From the IMG/VR virus record IMGVR_UViG_3300030329_000221, positions 1-25,166 of that record: a stretch of 25,166 bases of DNA. One strand, written 5' to 3'. The DNA is from a virus. The translations under genes and the position numbers were made by a program. Positions 3,703-24,917 of this stretch are shown piece after piece; positions within the stretch are counted from its first letter, which is position 1, and each line of letters begins with the position of its first letter. The notes under the pieces are model-generated. The model had not been told where the DNA came from and did not search any database. It saw only the letters and a list, made by a program, of their open reading frames with translations.

Positions 3703-3925
3703 AAGCGAAAGACAAAACAAATACTATTGGAAATGTATTGTACAACCAATATGTGAATATACAGGCTATCATAAATTTGAAATGCACGAACTATTAAAAG
3801 AAAGGTTTATAATTAAAACAACTAAAGAACTAGACAAACAAGAGTTTAACCAATTCTGTGAAGAAGTAAGAGCTTGGGCATCTATTGACTTAGGACTACA
3901 TTTACCAGCACCAAATGAATATTAA
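3686..3925 (+). CDS. Small phage protein with conserved RSxxQNxYYW / ASIDLGLHLPxPNE signature
   Basis: 79 aa. It begins IRSERQNKYYWKCIVQPICEY and ends EVRAWASIDLGLHLPAPNEY. This helical layout recurs in many phages of Bacteroidetes and other hosts, in recombination or replication clusters, and loosely recalls NinB-type proteins. Association with the NinG-like gene upstream supports a recombination context, but similarity to NinB itself is weak. The gene ends 18 bases before the terminase small subunit. Confidence 0.6.
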   Translation: MSHLIRSERQNKYYWKCIVQPICEYTGYHKFEMHELLKERFIIKTTKELDKQEFNQFCEEVRAWASIDLGLHLPAPNEY

Positions 3926-3928
3926 TTA

Positions 3929-3943
3929 TTTCTATAATATAAT
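3929..3943 (+). promoter_or_regulatory. Copy 1 of TTTCTATA motif directly before ATG (terS)
   Basis: TTTCTATAATATAAT abuts the terminase small subunit ATG. The same 15-base layout stands directly before the ATGs at 5700 and 18377. Candidate phage-specific promoter or translation-start element; function not shown. Confidence 0.35.
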
Positions 3944-4294
3944 ATGGACAAACGAACAGAACGAACACAAGACAATAAAGAACTATTATTAAAAGCATTA
4001 CAAAAATCTTTAGGAATAGTAACAGAAGCTTGTGAAAAAGCAGGACTAAGTAGAACACAACATTACAAGTGGTATAAAGAAGATGAAGAATATCGTAAGC
4101 AAGTACAAGAAATAGATGGTATGTTTATAGACTTTGCAGAAACACATTTAAAAGAACAAATAGAAAAAGGCAGTACACCTGCTACTATATTCTATTTAAA
4201 GACAAGAGGTAAAAAGCGTGGTTATGGTGATAGCTTAGATATAACATCAGACGAACAAAGAATACAGATCCATATTGACTTGGGAGATGAATAA
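3944..4294 (+). CDS. terS: Terminase small subunit-like protein
   Basis: 116 aa with an N-terminal helix-turn-helix (LLLKALQKSLGIVTEACEKA ... GLSRTQHYKWYKEDEEYRKQ, residues about 14-51), a helical oligomerisation segment and a C-terminal segment around TPATIFYLKTRGKKRGYGDS. This matches the small terminase/phBC6A51-like HTH layout and lies directly before the large subunit, as expected. It recognises the packaging site and hands DNA to TerL. The acidic tail overlaps the terL start by 8 bases. Confidence 0.8.
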   Translation: MDKRTERTQDNKELLLKALQKSLGIVTEACEKAGLSRTQHYKWYKEDEEYRKQVQEIDGMFIDFAETHLKEQIEKGSTPATIFYLKTRGKKRGYGDSLDITSDEQRIQIHIDLGDE

Positions 4295-5603
4295 AAGGTT
4301 AAAACCTAAATTTACACCAAAACAAAAAGAATGTTTTAAATATCTATTAGACAATTCTACAAAAGAGATATTATTTGGTGGTGCAGCTGGTGGTGGTAAA
4401 TCCTGGTTAGGTGTTAGCTATTTAATTACTATGTGTTTAACATATCCAAAAACAAGATACTTAATGGGTCGTAGTAAATTAGACGCATTAAAAAAAACAA
4501 CACTAAACACTTTTTTTGAAGTATGTACAGCTTGGAGTTTAAAAGCTATTGAAGATTACACGTTTAACGGATCAAGTAATATAATCACTTTTTATAATGG
4601 CAGTGAAATAATATTAAAGGATTTATTCTTATATCCAAGTGATAGAAACTTTGATAGTTTAGGATCATTAGAAATTACAGGTGCTTTTATAGACGAAGCT
4701 AATCAAATAACAGAAAAAGCTAAAAACGTAGTAGCTAGTAGATTAAGATATAAGTTAGATGAAAACAATTTAATTCCTAAGTTACTAATGACTTGCAATC
4801 CTGCAAAGAATTGGGTGTACACATCATATTATAGACCAGCACAAGAAAAAAAATTAAAACCATATAGAAAGTTTATACAAAGTTTAGTAACAGATAACCA
4901 ATATATTAGTAAACATTACGAACAACAACTATTAGAGCTTGATGAATTAACAAAGCAACGTCTATTATTTGGTAATTGGGAATATGACGCAACACAAGAT
5001 AGTTTAATAGATTATAATTCCATTGTTAGCTTATTTGAAACAAAAGGTACTGATGGTGATAAATATATAACTTGTGATGTAGCACGTTTTGGTAGCGATA
5101 AAACAGTTATAATGTTTTGGCAAGGGTTACACCTTAAGTATATAAGAACGTTGCTTAAATCGGCTATAAATGATGTTGTAGAGGATATTAAGAAGATACA
5201 GCAAGAAAACCAAGTACCATTAAGAAATGTAATAGTAGATGAAGATGGAGTGGGTGGTGGTGTAAAAGATTATCTAAGATGTCAAGGGTTTATAAATAAC
5301 GCAAGAGCATTAAAGAACGAAAACTATCAAAACTTAAAAACACAATGTTATTATACTTTAGCTAAAAAAATAAACGAAGGACAATTAGGAATATCTTGTA
5401 GTAATATAAATACTAAGAATGACATCATAGAAGAATTAGAGCAAGTAAGAACTAAAGATGCAGATAAAGACAATAAATTACAAATACTATCTAAAGATAC
5501 TGTAAAAGCTATGATAGGCAGATCACCAGATTATGCAGATGCTTTAGCTATGCGTATGTACTATGAAATAGATAGTAATTATGGAAGGTATTTTGTACAA
5601 TAA
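4287..5603 (+). CDS. terL: Terminase large subunit (packaging ATPase and nuclease)
   Basis: 438 aa. The ATPase domain has Walker A GGAAGGGKS (31-39), Walker B AFIDEA (133-138, D136/E137) and a coupling motif LMTCNP (167-172). The nuclease domain has D264 in ITCDVARFGSDKT, the acidic pair in VIVDEDGVGGG (316-324) and D415/D418 in RSPDYADALAM. It pumps DNA into the prohead at the portal and cuts the concatemer. Start ATG 4287 gives an 8-base overlap with terS; an in-frame TTG at 4275 is less likely. The portal gene is not next to it, as is common, but about 14 kb downstream. Confidence 0.97.
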   Translation: MNKRLKPKFTPKQKECFKYLLDNSTKEILFGGAAGGGKSWLGVSYLITMCLTYPKTRYLMGRSKLDALKKTTLNTFFEVCTAWSLKAIEDYTFNGSSNIITFYNGSEIILKDLFLYPSDRNFDSLGSLEITGAFIDEANQITEKAKNVVASRLRYKLDENNLIPKLLMTCNPAKNWVYTSYYRPAQEKKLKPYRKFIQSLVTDNQYISKHYEQQLLELDELTKQRLLFGNWEYDATQDSLIDYNSIVSLFETKGTDGDKYITCDVARFGSDKTVIMFWQGLHLKYIRTLLKSAINDVVEDIKKIQQENQVPLRNVIVDEDGVGGGVKDYLRCQGFINNARALKNENYQNLKTQCYYTLAKKINEGQLGISCSNINTKNDIIEELEQVRTKDADKDNKLQILSKDTVKAMIGRSPDYADALAMRMYYEIDSNYGRYFVQ

Positions 5604-5626
5604 AAGAGAAAAGCGACCGAAGTCGC
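5600..5626 (-). terminator. Rho-independent terminator reading leftward (minus strand)
   Basis: On the minus strand the DNA reads GCGAC-TTCG-GTCGC followed by TTTTCTCTTTTAT: a 5-bp GC-rich stem closed by a cUUCGg tetraloop, with a U-rich tract that overlaps the terL stop codon. In the + direction the stem (5613-5617 with 5622-5626) is followed by AATCCTC, with no U tract, so the signal is directional. It is the only clear minus-strand element here and has no minus-strand gene upstream of it. Confidence 0.65.
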
Positions 5627-5652
5627 AATCCTCACAAGTATATGAAAACGTG

Positions 5653-5660
5653 CAAATATA
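5653..5660 (-). promoter_or_regulatory. Candidate leftward -7 element (TATATTTG)
   Basis: Read on the minus strand this is TATATTTG, a perfect TAnnTTTG, identical to the -7 box of the promoter at 24375. No good TTG/TTTG -33 element is seen about 20 bases upstream. A start near 5648 would make a transcript of roughly 50 nt ending at the minus-strand terminator. Low confidence because the -33 is missing. Confidence 0.3.
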
Positions 5661-5684
5661 TAACTATAAACTAAATATTAACTT

Positions 5685-5699
5685 TTTCTATATATAAAT
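5685..5699 (+). promoter_or_regulatory. Copy 2 of TTTCTATA motif directly before ATG (tail chaperone gene)
   Basis: TTTCTATATATAAAT abuts the ATG at 5700 and is preceded by ATTAACTT, like other copies. It lies in the 96-bp terL-chaperone spacer, where a new + strand transcript would be expected to begin. Part of it (TATAAATA) also resembles a T4 late promoter octamer. Confidence 0.4.
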
Positions 5700-6344
5700 A
5701 TGAAAGTAAAAATCAAGAAAAAAGGTAAAACAAAGAAATATAATGTAATAAGTAGTTGGAGTGAAGTAACGTTAGAGAAGTGGATTAAATTGGCAGAACT
5801 TCAGGGATTAAGCAATAGTGAAGAAGCTTTAGAAACTATCAAGATAATGTCCGATATACCTGAGAAGTTAATAAAGCAGTTATCAATACCTGCATTATCA
5901 GTTATATTAAACAGGTTAAGTCAATTACAGGCAGAAAGAAAGGTTAATCTACAAAAGATTATAAAAGTTGATGATAAAGAATATGGATTTCACCCAAATT
6001 TAAGTGAAGACCTAACTTTAGGTGAATGGGCAGATATAGAGCATTTTATAAAAGAGGGAGTGGAAAATAATTTGCCACAATTAATGGCTATATTATATAG
6101 AGAAATAGTAGAAAGAGAAGGTGAAGCATATATCATAAAAGCTTATGATGGAAATATAGATGTAAGGGCAGAAAAGTTTAAAAAGATGAAAGCAGAACAA
6201 ATAGAAAGTGCTTTAATGTTTTTTTTTGCTTTCGTAAAAGAGTTTTTAAGGATTTTGCCATCATCTTTGATGGATCACACGAAGGAAATGATAAAGTTGA
6301 CACAGACGAAACATTTGCAGAAAAGTGGGGCTACTTTGGATTAA
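5700..6344 (+). CDS. Tail assembly chaperone-like protein, short (unshifted) form
   Basis: 214 aa, probable gpG-type tail assembly chaperone that coats the tape measure during tail building. Visible features: basic N-terminus (KVKIKKKGKTKKY), the helical segment WSEVTLEKWIKLAEL (20-34), YGFHPNLSEDLTLGEWADIE (about residues 95-114), and MAILYREIVE. This layout recurs in Bacteroidetes phage proteins placed before tail genes. Near the end the frame reads ATG TTT TTT TTT GCT, a T9 run where a -1 slip leads into a second open frame (see long form). It is the first gene after the terL spacer and has the TTTCTATA motif before it. Chaperone identity rests on the frameshift layout and family resemblance; the tape measure is unusually far away. 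Confidence 0.7.
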   Translation: MKVKIKKKGKTKKYNVISSWSEVTLEKWIKLAELQGLSNSEEALETIKIMSDIPEKLIKQLSIPALSVILNRLSQLQAERKVNLQKIIKVDDKEYGFHPNLSEDLTLGEWADIEHFIKEGVENNLPQLMAILYREIVEREGEAYIIKAYDGNIDVRAEKFKKMKAEQIESALMFFFAFVKEFLRILPSSLMDHTKEMIKLTQTKHLQKSGATLD

Positions 6345-15127: not shown

Positions 15128-15162
15128 AATCAAATAAATAACAATTAAATATATATATAAAT

Positions 15163-15885
15163 ATGCCGTGTAAAAAATGTAAAGATGGAAAAGTAAAATG
15201 GGGTGAAACTGGCGAATGCGAGTACGACACCATTGCGGAATGCGAAGAAGCTAACAAAGATTATTACGAGAAAACAACTAAAATTGTAGAACTAATAATA
15301 GACGAAGACAATGAAGATTTAGCAATAGATGCTATTAGCTTAGTATCTGCACCAGCAATAGAAGAAAATATGGTGTACTTCAATAAATCTAAAAACAATT
15401 TAACTTTAGCTAAAGTTGATAAAGAAAAAAGAGAATTAATTGCACCTGCTTTAATCCCAGATAAGAATATATATCGCTATGACCCACATAAAGATGAAGA
15501 ATACTATGTGTATTTTAGTAAAGAAACTGTAAAACAAGCAGCTTATAGTTACTTAAAAAATAACAATCATCATAAGGCAACGTATGAACATCAAGATAGA
15601 GTTTCTGGAGTTTTAACTGTGGAAAGTTGGATAATAGAAGATCCTAAAAATGATAAAAGCACACTTTATGGATTTTCACTTCCTAAAGGCAGTTGGATGG
15701 TTAAGATGCGTATAAATAACGATAAGTTGTGGTCTGAAATTCGTGATGGCAATATTCAAGGTTTATCAATCGAAGGGTATTTTACAAATCGCTTTGAAGC
15801 TATGCAAAACAGAAAGCCAACAGATGCAGAAATCCTAATGGCTTTAAATGAGATAATAAGAGAAAATCAAAAATCAAATAAATAA
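15163..15885 (+). CDS. XkdF-like prohead protease
   Basis: 240 aa. The core IDAISLVSAPAIEENMVYFN (55-74) through HHKATYEHQDRVSGVLTVES and GNIQGLSIEGYF (196-207) matches the XkdF-like phage serine protease family; H143 and S202 are candidate catalytic residues. It would cut the scaffold and capsid precursor. The N-terminus carries a small CKKC ... C ... C segment (residues 3-27: C3, C6, C19, C27), with KVKWGETGECEYDT, likely a zinc knuckle. Start ATG 15163 follows an AT-rich stretch ending TATATATATAAAT. The gene is placed just before scaffold and major capsid, as expected. Confidence 0.8.
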   Translation: MPCKKCKDGKVKWGETGECEYDTIAECEEANKDYYEKTTKIVELIIDEDNEDLAIDAISLVSAPAIEENMVYFNKSKNNLTLAKVDKEKRELIAPALIPDKNIYRYDPHKDEEYYVYFSKETVKQAAYSYLKNNNHHKATYEHQDRVSGVLTVESWIIEDPKNDKSTLYGFSLPKGSWMVKMRINNDKLWSEIRDGNIQGLSIEGYFTNRFEAMQNRKPTDAEILMALNEIIRENQKSNK

Positions 15886-16686: not shown

Positions 16687-17604
16687 ATGGCATTTAGTGT
16701 GACTCAGCCGAATTTCAACGGCAAAGCAGCAGGATTCTATATTTCTGCAGCTTTAAAACAAGCAAAATCGTTAGAGTATATGACGGTTATGGAAAACATA
16801 AAATATAAAGAAAATATACAAAAAATGGCAGGAAGTGGCTTAGTTGTAGATGGAGATTGTAATGCATTCACAAGTGCAGGAAATCTTGCTCTTACTGAAG
16901 CGACTCTTAGCCCAAAGGATCTACAAATAAACTTGAGCATTTGCAAGGGTACATTGTTAAAATCTTGGGAAAGTTTACAAATGAGAGCAGGTAGAGATGC
17001 TATGCCATCTGTATCTTTCGAAGACTATGTTATAGCGTATATGGGAGAAATCATAGCAGATGCTACTGAATCTTCAATATGGGGTGGTGTAACAGGTAAC
17101 GCAGGAGAATTTAACGGATTCACAGGATATTGGTTATTACCAGGTACTGACGCAACAGTAGTTCAAGATGCAGCAGCAGGTGCTTATACAAACGCTAATA
17201 TAATATCTAGTTTACAAGGATTAGTAGACGCTATCACAGGTGGTACGGCTAATAATGTATTAGGAAAAGAAGATGCTTACATCTATATGAACAACAAAAC
17301 TTGGCAACTATACATCCAAGCAATTTCTGCTTTAACAGGAGTGCCGTGGATGTCAATGAATAAAGATTATGAGCCAGTTTTTGAAGGAATAAAAATCGCC
17401 ATTGTACCAGGTATGGTTGATAACCAGATGGTATTTGCACAAAAGAGCAATTTATTCTTTGGTACGGATTTACTTTCGGATAGTACTCGTATAAGTTTGC
17501 TAGATCAAAGTATGGTAACAGGTTCAGATAATATCAATCTGGTAGCTCGTTATACAGCAGGAGTTGTAGCAGGTATTGGTGCAGATGTAGTAAGACAATC
17601 GTAA
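16687..17604 (+). CDS. Major capsid protein (HK97-fold, probable)
   Basis: 305 aa. The layout fits an HK97-type major capsid: N-terminal region with SLEYMTVMENIKYKENIQKM, a long helix, a central E-loop-like segment, and a P-domain/C-terminal part with MNNKTWQLYIQAISALTG and EPVFEGIKIAIVPGM (about 236-250), the latter like the FxGixi...pgm motif in capsid proteins of Bacteroidetes phages. It follows protease and scaffold and is followed by a hairpin and the tail tube gene. No sizeable N-terminal delta domain is evident, which agrees with a separate scaffold. Confidence 0.85.
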   Translation: MAFSVTQPNFNGKAAGFYISAALKQAKSLEYMTVMENIKYKENIQKMAGSGLVVDGDCNAFTSAGNLALTEATLSPKDLQINLSICKGTLLKSWESLQMRAGRDAMPSVSFEDYVIAYMGEIIADATESSIWGGVTGNAGEFNGFTGYWLLPGTDATVVQDAAAGAYTNANIISSLQGLVDAITGGTANNVLGKEDAYIYMNNKTWQLYIQAISALTGVPWMSMNKDYEPVFEGIKIAIVPGMVDNQMVFAQKSNLFFGTDLLSDSTRISLLDQSMVTGSDNINLVARYTAGVVAGIGADVVRQS

Positions 17605-17616
17605 ACTTAATTATAC

Positions 17617-17640
17617 GGAAGTGGTGTAAAAGCCACTTCC
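17617..17640 (+). terminator. Hairpin after the capsid gene (possible weak terminator)
   Basis: A perfect 8-bp stem GGAAGTGG/CCACTTCC (17617-17624 with 17633-17640), with an 8-base loop, is followed by TTAACTTT. The T tract is interrupted, so termination may be partial, letting some read-through into the tail tube gene; it may also stabilise the mRNA end. Confidence 0.6.
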
Positions 17641-18310: not shown

Positions 18311-18340
18311 AGGTGGCTTTATTGCCACCTTTTTCTTTAT
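18311..18340 (+). terminator. Rho-independent terminator after tail tube gene
   Basis: Perfect 7-bp stem AGGTGGC/GCCACCT (18311-18317 with 18324-18330), loop TTTATT, then TTTTCTTTAT. A classical terminator in the + direction. The TTTCTATA motif and next ATG follow within about 50 bases. Confidence 0.9.
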
Positions 18341-18361
18341 ATTGCAAATAAATAACATCTT

Positions 18362-18376
18362 TTTCTATATATTAAT
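18362..18376 (+). promoter_or_regulatory. Copy 3 of TTTCTATA motif directly before ATG
   Basis: TTTCTATATATTAAT abuts the ATG at 18377 and lies just after a strong terminator, where a promoter for the next transcript is expected. Same length and position relative to ATG as copies at 3929 and 5685. Confidence 0.45.
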
Positions 18377-18868
18377 ATGTTACAAGTAACTTATAAATCT
18401 TCACCATACGTATTTTATGTATCAACAGAAGATAATAGAATAGATACAGGAGCAACAACTGCACAAATAAGATTTTTATTTAAACTTACTAATGATATGT
18501 CTGGTGCAGTTAAGTATGGTTATGGGCAAAGCCAAACTATTTACGATAGATATACTAAAATGCAATTACAACATAAATTAGTAGCAGCAGAAGATGTGTT
18601 TACAGGAGCAGTTGATTTAGTGCCTAATGGATATTGGCAGTATGAGATTTATGAAGTAGCGTGGTCAGGTGTAGCAAGTTTAACTACTGATACTGCACCT
18701 GTTACTGAAACACAAGTATTAACACCACCAGCAGCTACTAAAGGTGTAGTAAAAGGAATGGTAAATAGTGGCAAGTTATATGTAACAGAAGAAGGTGGAC
18801 AAGAGCAAGTTCAATATACACAGTATGAAGAACCTGCTTCTAATAATTATATATATTACGGACAATAA
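18377..18868 (+). CDS. Virion-associated protein of unknown function
   Basis: 163 aa, beta-rich N-terminus (LQVTYKSSPYVFYVSTEDNR; AQIRFLFKLTN) and a central NGYWQYEIYEVAWSG. The C-terminal ~30 residues (LYVTEEGGQEQVQYTQYEEP) are Tyr/Glu/Gln-rich and look flexible. Positioned between tail tube and portal; may be a decoration or minor structural protein, or an assembly factor. It is the first gene of a new transcript after the terminator. Not recognised with certainty. Confidence 0.5.
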   Translation: MLQVTYKSSPYVFYVSTEDNRIDTGATTAQIRFLFKLTNDMSGAVKYGYGQSQTIYDRYTKMQLQHKLVAAEDVFTGAVDLVPNGYWQYEIYEVAWSGVASLTTDTAPVTETQVLTPPAATKGVVKGMVNSGKLYVTEEGGQEQVQYTQYEEPASNNYIYYGQ

Positions 18869-24366: not shown

Positions 24367-24382
24367 AAAGTTTGTATATTTG
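24352..24382 (+). promoter_or_regulatory. Bacteroidetes-type host promoter
   Basis: TTG (24352-24354), 20-base spacer, then TATATTTG (24375-24382), matching the TTTG-n19-21-TAnnTTTG consensus of the Bacteroidetes housekeeping sigma factor. The start of transcription would be near 24387. The -33 box is the last three bases of iteron 3, and iteron 4 fills the spacer, so a protein on the repeats would block or alter the promoter. Confidence 0.75.
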
Positions 24383-24410
24383 CAGTATGAAAACACTAAA
24401 TAATATAAAA

Positions 24411-24596: not shown

Positions 24597-24638
24597 ATAT
24601 ACACAGCATAAAATCCTTTGCAACTAATATAGGTATAT

Positions 24639-24917
24639 ATGAAAATGACAAATAAAGAAATTATGAAAACAATGTACAAAATGTTACCAGCTACTAATAA
24701 ATTAGAAGCTATAAAATCAATACTAGATGCTATGACGGAAAATCCTTTATGGCTTTTAGAATGTTCAAGCAAAGAATTTGCAACAGTATACAGATTACAT
24801 AATACTGAAAAGCGTAAACAATATTTAAATCTTATGTCTTTTTACGAGGTTAGAGAGTTATATATTGAATTAAGAACACACTACTACAATTCAGTTGCAG
24901 TAGACAAAATATTTTAA
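24639..24917 (+). CDS. Hypothetical helical protein (92 aa)
   Basis: 92 aa, mainly helical with repeated Tyr/Lys/Glu/Met: MKMTNKEIMKTMYKMLPATN, a middle NPLWLLECSSKEFATVYRLH and KQYLNLMSFYEVRELYIELR toward the end. One cysteine only; no membrane segment or known motif. It likely belongs to the same early unit as the zinc-ribbon protein before it. Not recognised. Confidence 0.55.
   Translation: MKMTNKEIMKTMYKMLPATNKLEAIKSILDAMTENPLWLLECSSKEFATVYRLHNTEKRKQYLNLMSFYEVRELYIELRTHYYNSVAVDKIF

Follow-up and report, generated by a model that had tools for sequence, protein, structure and literature searches.

A predicted small RNA gene beside terL in an uncultured phage and its relatives

In the 25,166 bases of an uncultured virus record, the whole of which is referred to here as the window, we identified a short minus-strand transcription unit directly behind the gene for the terminase large subunit (terL) that, as predicted from sequence, probably specifies a real phage regulatory RNA. 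Amongst the explanations considered, we favour, with a confidence somewhat above even, a free-standing phage small-RNA gene, the product of which is a non-coding RNA of ∼50 nt and which is carried as an optional cassette in a moron-like placement. The gene is visible from sequence alone in dozens of uncultured phages, where it comes with a defined promoter, start and end, as well as candidate targets. A preliminary description of the locus had offered two readings, a small RNA or a device that stops antisense transcription from entering terL. The former is well supported by the conservation of promoter, spacing, terminator, RNA 5′ sequence and hairpin pairing, whilst the latter is the weaker reading for reasons given below.

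Layout of the predicted unit in the window

The left neighbour of the unit is terL (4275..5603, plus strand; phrog_2, E-value 1e-34; Pfam Terminase_3), which is 54 % identical to the terL of Flavobacterium phage 11b and 52 % identical to that of Cellulophaga phage phi10:1. On the other side lies a plus-strand gene belonging to a family of unknown function (phrog_32199, 5700..6344), introduced by a leader element that is repeated before plus-strand genes (5669..5702, plus strand), lies over the -33 region of the promoter assigned to the small RNA and is retained in relatives without the unit. Four 34-nt copies of this AACTAAATATTAACTTTTTCTATATATAAATATG-like element were found in the window (3913-3946, 5669-5702, 15132-15165 and 18346-18379), all of them ending in gene start codons, and the element probably serves late operons as their promoter or start signal. 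Terminator-like hairpins on the plus strand were additionally observed at 17617-17640 and 18311-18330, after genes ending at 17604 and 18260, respectively, the second of which precedes a copy of the repeated leader element.

The promoter assigned to the unit contains the minus-strand -7 element TATATTTG (5653..5660), which is of the Bacteroidetes sigma-A type and matches TAnnTTTG, the flavobacterial promoter consensus (PMC9723704, PMC6847099); as the preliminary description had pointed out, it is identical to a plus-strand box at 24375. At the -33 position the window has only an imperfect element, TTA at 5679..5681 (minus strand), whilst 27 of the 44 related units described below have TTG at this position with a spacing of 17-22 nt. 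The -33 motif is weak in F. johnsoniae (PMC6847099). For the plus-strand box (24375-24394, TATATTTGCAGTATGAAAAC) the predicted transcription start coincides with an ATG, as if the transcript were leaderless, and the same 20-mer is present identically in G014.

Using the -12 to -5 position of the -7 box in Flavobacterium to place the start and the U-tract to place the end, we predict an RNA of ∼48-51 nt on the minus strand (5598..5648), starting at 5648 or 5649 and ending at ∼5598-5601. Its 5′ segment, GUUUUCAUAUACUUGU (5634..5649), is unpaired in the predicted fold and is the likely seed. The remainder would form a terminator hairpin, for which the sequence described earlier, GCGAC-TTCG-GTCGC at minus-strand 5626-5613 followed by TTTTCTCTTTTAT, is present as claimed. 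The hairpin itself is longer than had been recognized, however, extending to 10 bp over 5633-5606 (GAGGA-UU-GCGAC-UUCG-GUCGC-UU-UUCUC) with a UU/UU internal loop and a UUCG loop. Its minimum free energy is -15.1 kcal/mol (z -5.1 vs dinucleotide shuffles, none of 200 of which were as stable). The U-tract that follows, TTTTATTG (5598..5605, minus strand), overlaps the terL stop codon (5601-5603), in agreement with the proposed end inside that codon, and overlap of the RNA with terL coding sequence is limited to the stop codon. No U-tract is found in the plus direction of this hairpin.

Terminator-like matches are not in themselves rare in the window, with nine found against 6.3±2.3 expected, and the significance of this one derives from its pairing with a promoter and from the relatives. 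In a strict, unguided scan of whole genomes, the unit beside terL was the only minus-strand pair of promoter and terminator in the window, and 7 of the 12 genomes yielded such a pair at the corresponding site.

Conservation, gain and loss among related phages

Relatives were collected by IMG/VR searches with five terL proteins, together with cultured relatives and a pattern scan, yielding 104 different contigs in which the 3′ end of terL could be read. Amongst these, the distance from the terL stop codon to the next leader is bimodal (20-33 nt in 55 contigs and 86-153 nt in 33, with a further 16 being longer). With the two distant cultured phages set aside, a minus-strand terminator ending at terL was detected in all 22 non-redundant short spacers and a plus-strand terminator in none. 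An exact TAnnTTTG is present at the expected place in 20 of the 22, compared with its occurrence anywhere in ∼6 of 24 dinucleotide shuffles, and the remaining two spacers contain near misses (L074, TATACTTG; L079, TATATTCG). A search with the downstream gene and two pattern scans brought the number of non-redundant units to 44, of which 25 lie behind the terL family of the window and 19 behind another terL family. As units found by pattern possess it by construction, those units were used for architecture and not for motif frequency. Within the enlarged set, the minus-strand terminator is present in 44/44, a plus-strand terminator in 0/44 and TAnnTTTG in 41/44 (that of L079 being out of place), at a median of 27 nt from box to hairpin. 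Thus, the units have the features of a phage small-RNA gene in that they possess a host-type promoter of their own at a set distance from the terminator, as well as an intrinsic terminator of their own with a conserved direction, which also bears out the one-directional terminator of the preliminary description.

Within the hairpin, pairing is kept in 98.6 % of the cells of an alignment of seven homologues, vs 57-77 % for slid versions, and two base pairs are changed on both sides. Covariation of the stem, computed from seven sequences only, exceeded most but not all shuffles (43 of 500 were as high). As such, changes in the hairpin mostly preserve pairing. The UUCG tetraloop emphasized earlier does exist in the window but is private to it, with UUAG taking its place in the six closest homologues. 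Separately, the hairpin loops of L117, L118 and L142 have AACGTGCGG in common whilst their stems differ (GGGGAAAAC/GTTTTCCCC vs AGGGGAGC/GCTTCCCT), as if this loop were under a constraint of its own.

The 5′ segment UUUCAUAUACUUGUG is almost invariant in the seven close homologues. Two types of 5′ end were distinguished, the first being GUUUUCAUAUACUUGUG and the second GUUU..UUCAUUUUAGUU; the antisense of both includes the start-codon-like sequence AUGAA, the complement of which is carried by both types.

Coding and other functions for the locus were also considered. A closed ATG-initiated ORF of at least 6 codons lies within the RNA in only 3 of the 44 units, and a small protein encoded on the minus strand was rejected on this basis. 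Likewise rejected was a short plus-strand reading frame with its start at the conserved AAAATGAA of the opposite strand, as, read by eye, its peptides differ and the frame over the -7 box varies between phages. A plus-strand terminator serving terL was rejected because it is found in 0/44 units. A search of the window and relatives with Rfam covariance models returned no match. The unit was not found beside any of 52 terL relatives in bacterial genomes, where three stray TAnnTTTG were encountered, nor was it seen in the cultured phages 11b, phi10:1 and P12002L.

The unit is missing from about half of the related phages and is thus dispensable. In the nearest relative, L001 (terL 96.6 % identical), the terL stop is joined directly to the leader. 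Conservation of the hairpin in similar phages, which the preliminary description had made a condition of its proposal, is accordingly mixed: some close relatives are without it, yet the pattern is one of clean presence or absence and not of decay. On a quick terL tree with the states none, short, long and outgroup, for which change counts are indicative, we counted 17 changes, with well supported branches forcing at least seven for the short form. The placement is therefore that of a moron, namely present or absent between conserved genes, with a promoter and terminator of its own opposite the late operon.

When terL is exchanged, the unit stays with the downstream gene, as is evident from comparisons across the two terL families. 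The terL of L388 is only ∼20 % identical to that of the window over 131 residues, apart from the common terminal residues NYG(K/R)YFVQ, and nevertheless the two units are identical at 55 of 57 nt, with identity falling to at most 77 % over the first 450 nt of the downstream gene. Corresponding identities with the window for unit and downstream gene are 89 and 72 % in L383, 93 and 74 % in L453, and 84 and 76 % in L404. Furthermore, L304 and L324 are 100 % identical in unit, leader and next gene whilst their terL families differ. Exchange of the terL module takes place exactly at the terL 3′ end (window 5560-5603; seen in L304/L324 and in window/L388), with YFVQ being common to both families. 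The strongest indication that the sequence of the RNA is important comes from the unit being kept better than the downstream gene, and this sequence looks to be constrained itself, above all at the unpaired 5′ end. Alternatively, the high identity between window and L388 could come from a recent, separate transfer of the cassette.

Other elements were observed at the same site. In L022 (2593-2862), L057 and L061 (6306-6563, minus strand) it holds minus-strand ORFs of ∼75-85 aa with a TAnnTTTG box of their own, for which a PADLOC search returned no match. In L196, L198, L199, L204, L208 and L209, a second minus-strand unit comes after the short RNA unit and contains a small ORF (of 95 aa in L196), and in L196, L198 and L208 the terminator of the short unit lies several hundred nt from terL with the other minus-strand unit in between. 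In L197 and L212, what comes after the short RNA unit is a segment framed by G/C, with many possible helices, immediately before terL. Finally, the ∼330-nt spacer behind terL in L054 and L070 holds a longer minus-strand segment between a TAnnTTTG box and a terminator, closed by a 10-bp stem (CTTTGTTTGA..TCAGACAAAG) with, by eye, seemingly compensatory changes; it had no match in Rfam and is possibly another small structured RNA.

Proposed mode of action and alternatives

In the explanation that we favour, a host-type (Bacteroidetes sigma-A) promoter beside the leader of the downstream gene would fire leftward, producing an RNA that consists of an unpaired 5′ segment of ∼16-25 nt and a terminator hairpin and that ends at the terL stop. 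Host RNA polymerase would transcribe it early, as the same box precedes genes at 24375, and the RNA would then base-pair through its 5′ segment. Its likeliest targets, tentatively, are the regions in which the first of the early phage genes start, and the expression of these genes would be damped. As the RNA is fully complementary to the mRNA of terL and the next gene, a local antisense effect on that message may act too. Within this explanation, we would assign a little under half of the weight to pairing in trans with early phage genes, rather less than a third to local antisense plus other roles and about a quarter to a host target. A more ambitious version, in which the RNAs, made from a host-type promoter opposite the late operon, form a new and widespread class in flavobacterial phages with a 5′ seed that tracks and represses early gene starts and is kept through terminase exchange, we regard as doubtful at present.

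In searching for targets, shuffled-seed comparisons at phage gene starts gave no general signal (mean z -0.26). The leader downstream of the unit was rejected as a pairing partner, since the RNA fitted it no better than it fitted the leaders of other phages (mean z 0.14), and when eight phages were searched for extra exact copies of the complement of the class II seed, only the unit itself was returned. We also performed a covariation scan of 54 gene families from 41 phage records, in which pairing of each RNA with its own gene start was compared with pairing to orthologous starts elsewhere. The top three of the 54 families were all early genes (z -3.6, -3.5 and -2.9). One of these three includes window gene 24639-24917, the start region of which (24619..24647, plus strand) is a tentative candidate target, with a covariation signal and a predicted duplex of -18.8 kcal/mol. 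When seed positions were permuted in the same way in every phage, a control that leaves relatedness intact, the best single z was reached in 1 of 43 runs and the mean of the three in 0 of 22, whilst early families as a class gave no covariation signal (mean z 0.05). In one example, G009, RNA and target form 18 of 19 possible pairs by hand count. Taken together, early phage gene starts are suggested, but only suggested, as targets of the RNA.

A purely local antisense role, in the manner of lambda OOP RNA, would have the late mRNA of terL and the next gene paired with the RNA and cut by RNase III, uncoupling the cistrons, in which case position and complementarity alone would matter. Consistent with this, the RNA always lies opposite the junction of terL and the next gene, to which it is complementary throughout, the same place is occupied by units that have quite different bodies, and OOP itself is a precedent (PMC5869508, PMC12197685). 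An RNA acting in cis needs no conserved sequence, however, and here conservation of the 5′ segment exceeds that of the neighbouring gene; moreover, relatives such as L196 and L208 have the unit several hundred nt from terL, and there is no coding overlap beyond the stop codon. We consider this role unlikely as the whole explanation.

Less probable again is a device for insulation or interference, in which promoter and terminator matter and the RNA does not, with leftward polymerases colliding with late transcription and the terminator shielding terL. In its favour, it is the promoter and terminator that vary least across the units, the body differing between types, and the terminator always stands between promoter and terL; against it, the RNA 5′ segment is conserved in sequence. 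Against the shielding function put forward in the preliminary description, relatives without the promoter have no terminator either, antisense transcription has no evident origin other than the promoter of the unit itself, and L196, L198 and L208 keep the terminator of the short unit far from terL.

The unit might also be a remnant of minus-strand morons behind terL, or a landing pad for them, without a function of its own. Such a history would suit the minus-strand ORFs (L022, L057, L061) and longer inserts at the site, as well as the many presence/absence changes on the terL tree, but decay would not keep a promoter, spacing, terminator and near-invariant 5′ segment across terL families, and a short unit can stand next to a longer one, making this very improbable. 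Finally, a DNA site at the terL border, such as a recombination or packaging signal with no transcription unit, is scarcely credible: terL is indeed exchanged exactly at this border, with L304 and L324 100 % identical beyond it and of different terL families, but in many phages of either family the unit is missing from this same border, and a one-sided U-tract and a -7 box would have no reason to be there.

Comparison with known systems

We found no description of such an RNA, nor of any small RNA of this phage group, in the open-access papers searched, and have filed it as a new small-RNA family among phage-encoded small RNAs with a moron-like placement. It resembles lambda OOP RNA, a short RNA that has its own promoter opposite a phage operon and stops at a terminator of its own next to where a phage gene ends (PMC5869508). 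OOP overlaps 52 bases of the coding end of cII (PMC5869508), however, whilst the window RNA overlaps a stop codon only; the sequences are unrelated, the phages and promoter type differ, and a seed acting in trans is suspected here. Membership of the OOP group is not claimed, as the defining overlap with coding sequence is absent, although an OOP-like way of working is possible. STnc6030 of the Salmonella prophage BTP1 is likewise a phage RNA antisense to late or structural genes at an accessory locus; it differs in its predicted 786 nt, in being antisense to coding sequence and in mediating superinfection exclusion in lysogens (PMC7067206), compared with the ∼50 nt and intergenic position of the window RNA. 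The cis-encoded small RNAs at polysaccharide loci of Bacteroides are also short antisense RNAs, from the same phylum, but are cellular and antisense to PUL operons, a comparison that extends to their description as cited in PMC9723704.

In its placement, the gene resembles phage morons, being an autonomous unit of promoter and terminator on the opposite strand, between conserved genes, and present or absent among close relatives. Unlike these, it would specify a very small RNA instead of a protein, and its conservation extends across a wide group of phages and two terL families. If our explanation is true, what a moron site encodes can be an RNA, and the RNA would offer a handle on early gene control in Bacteroidetes phages.
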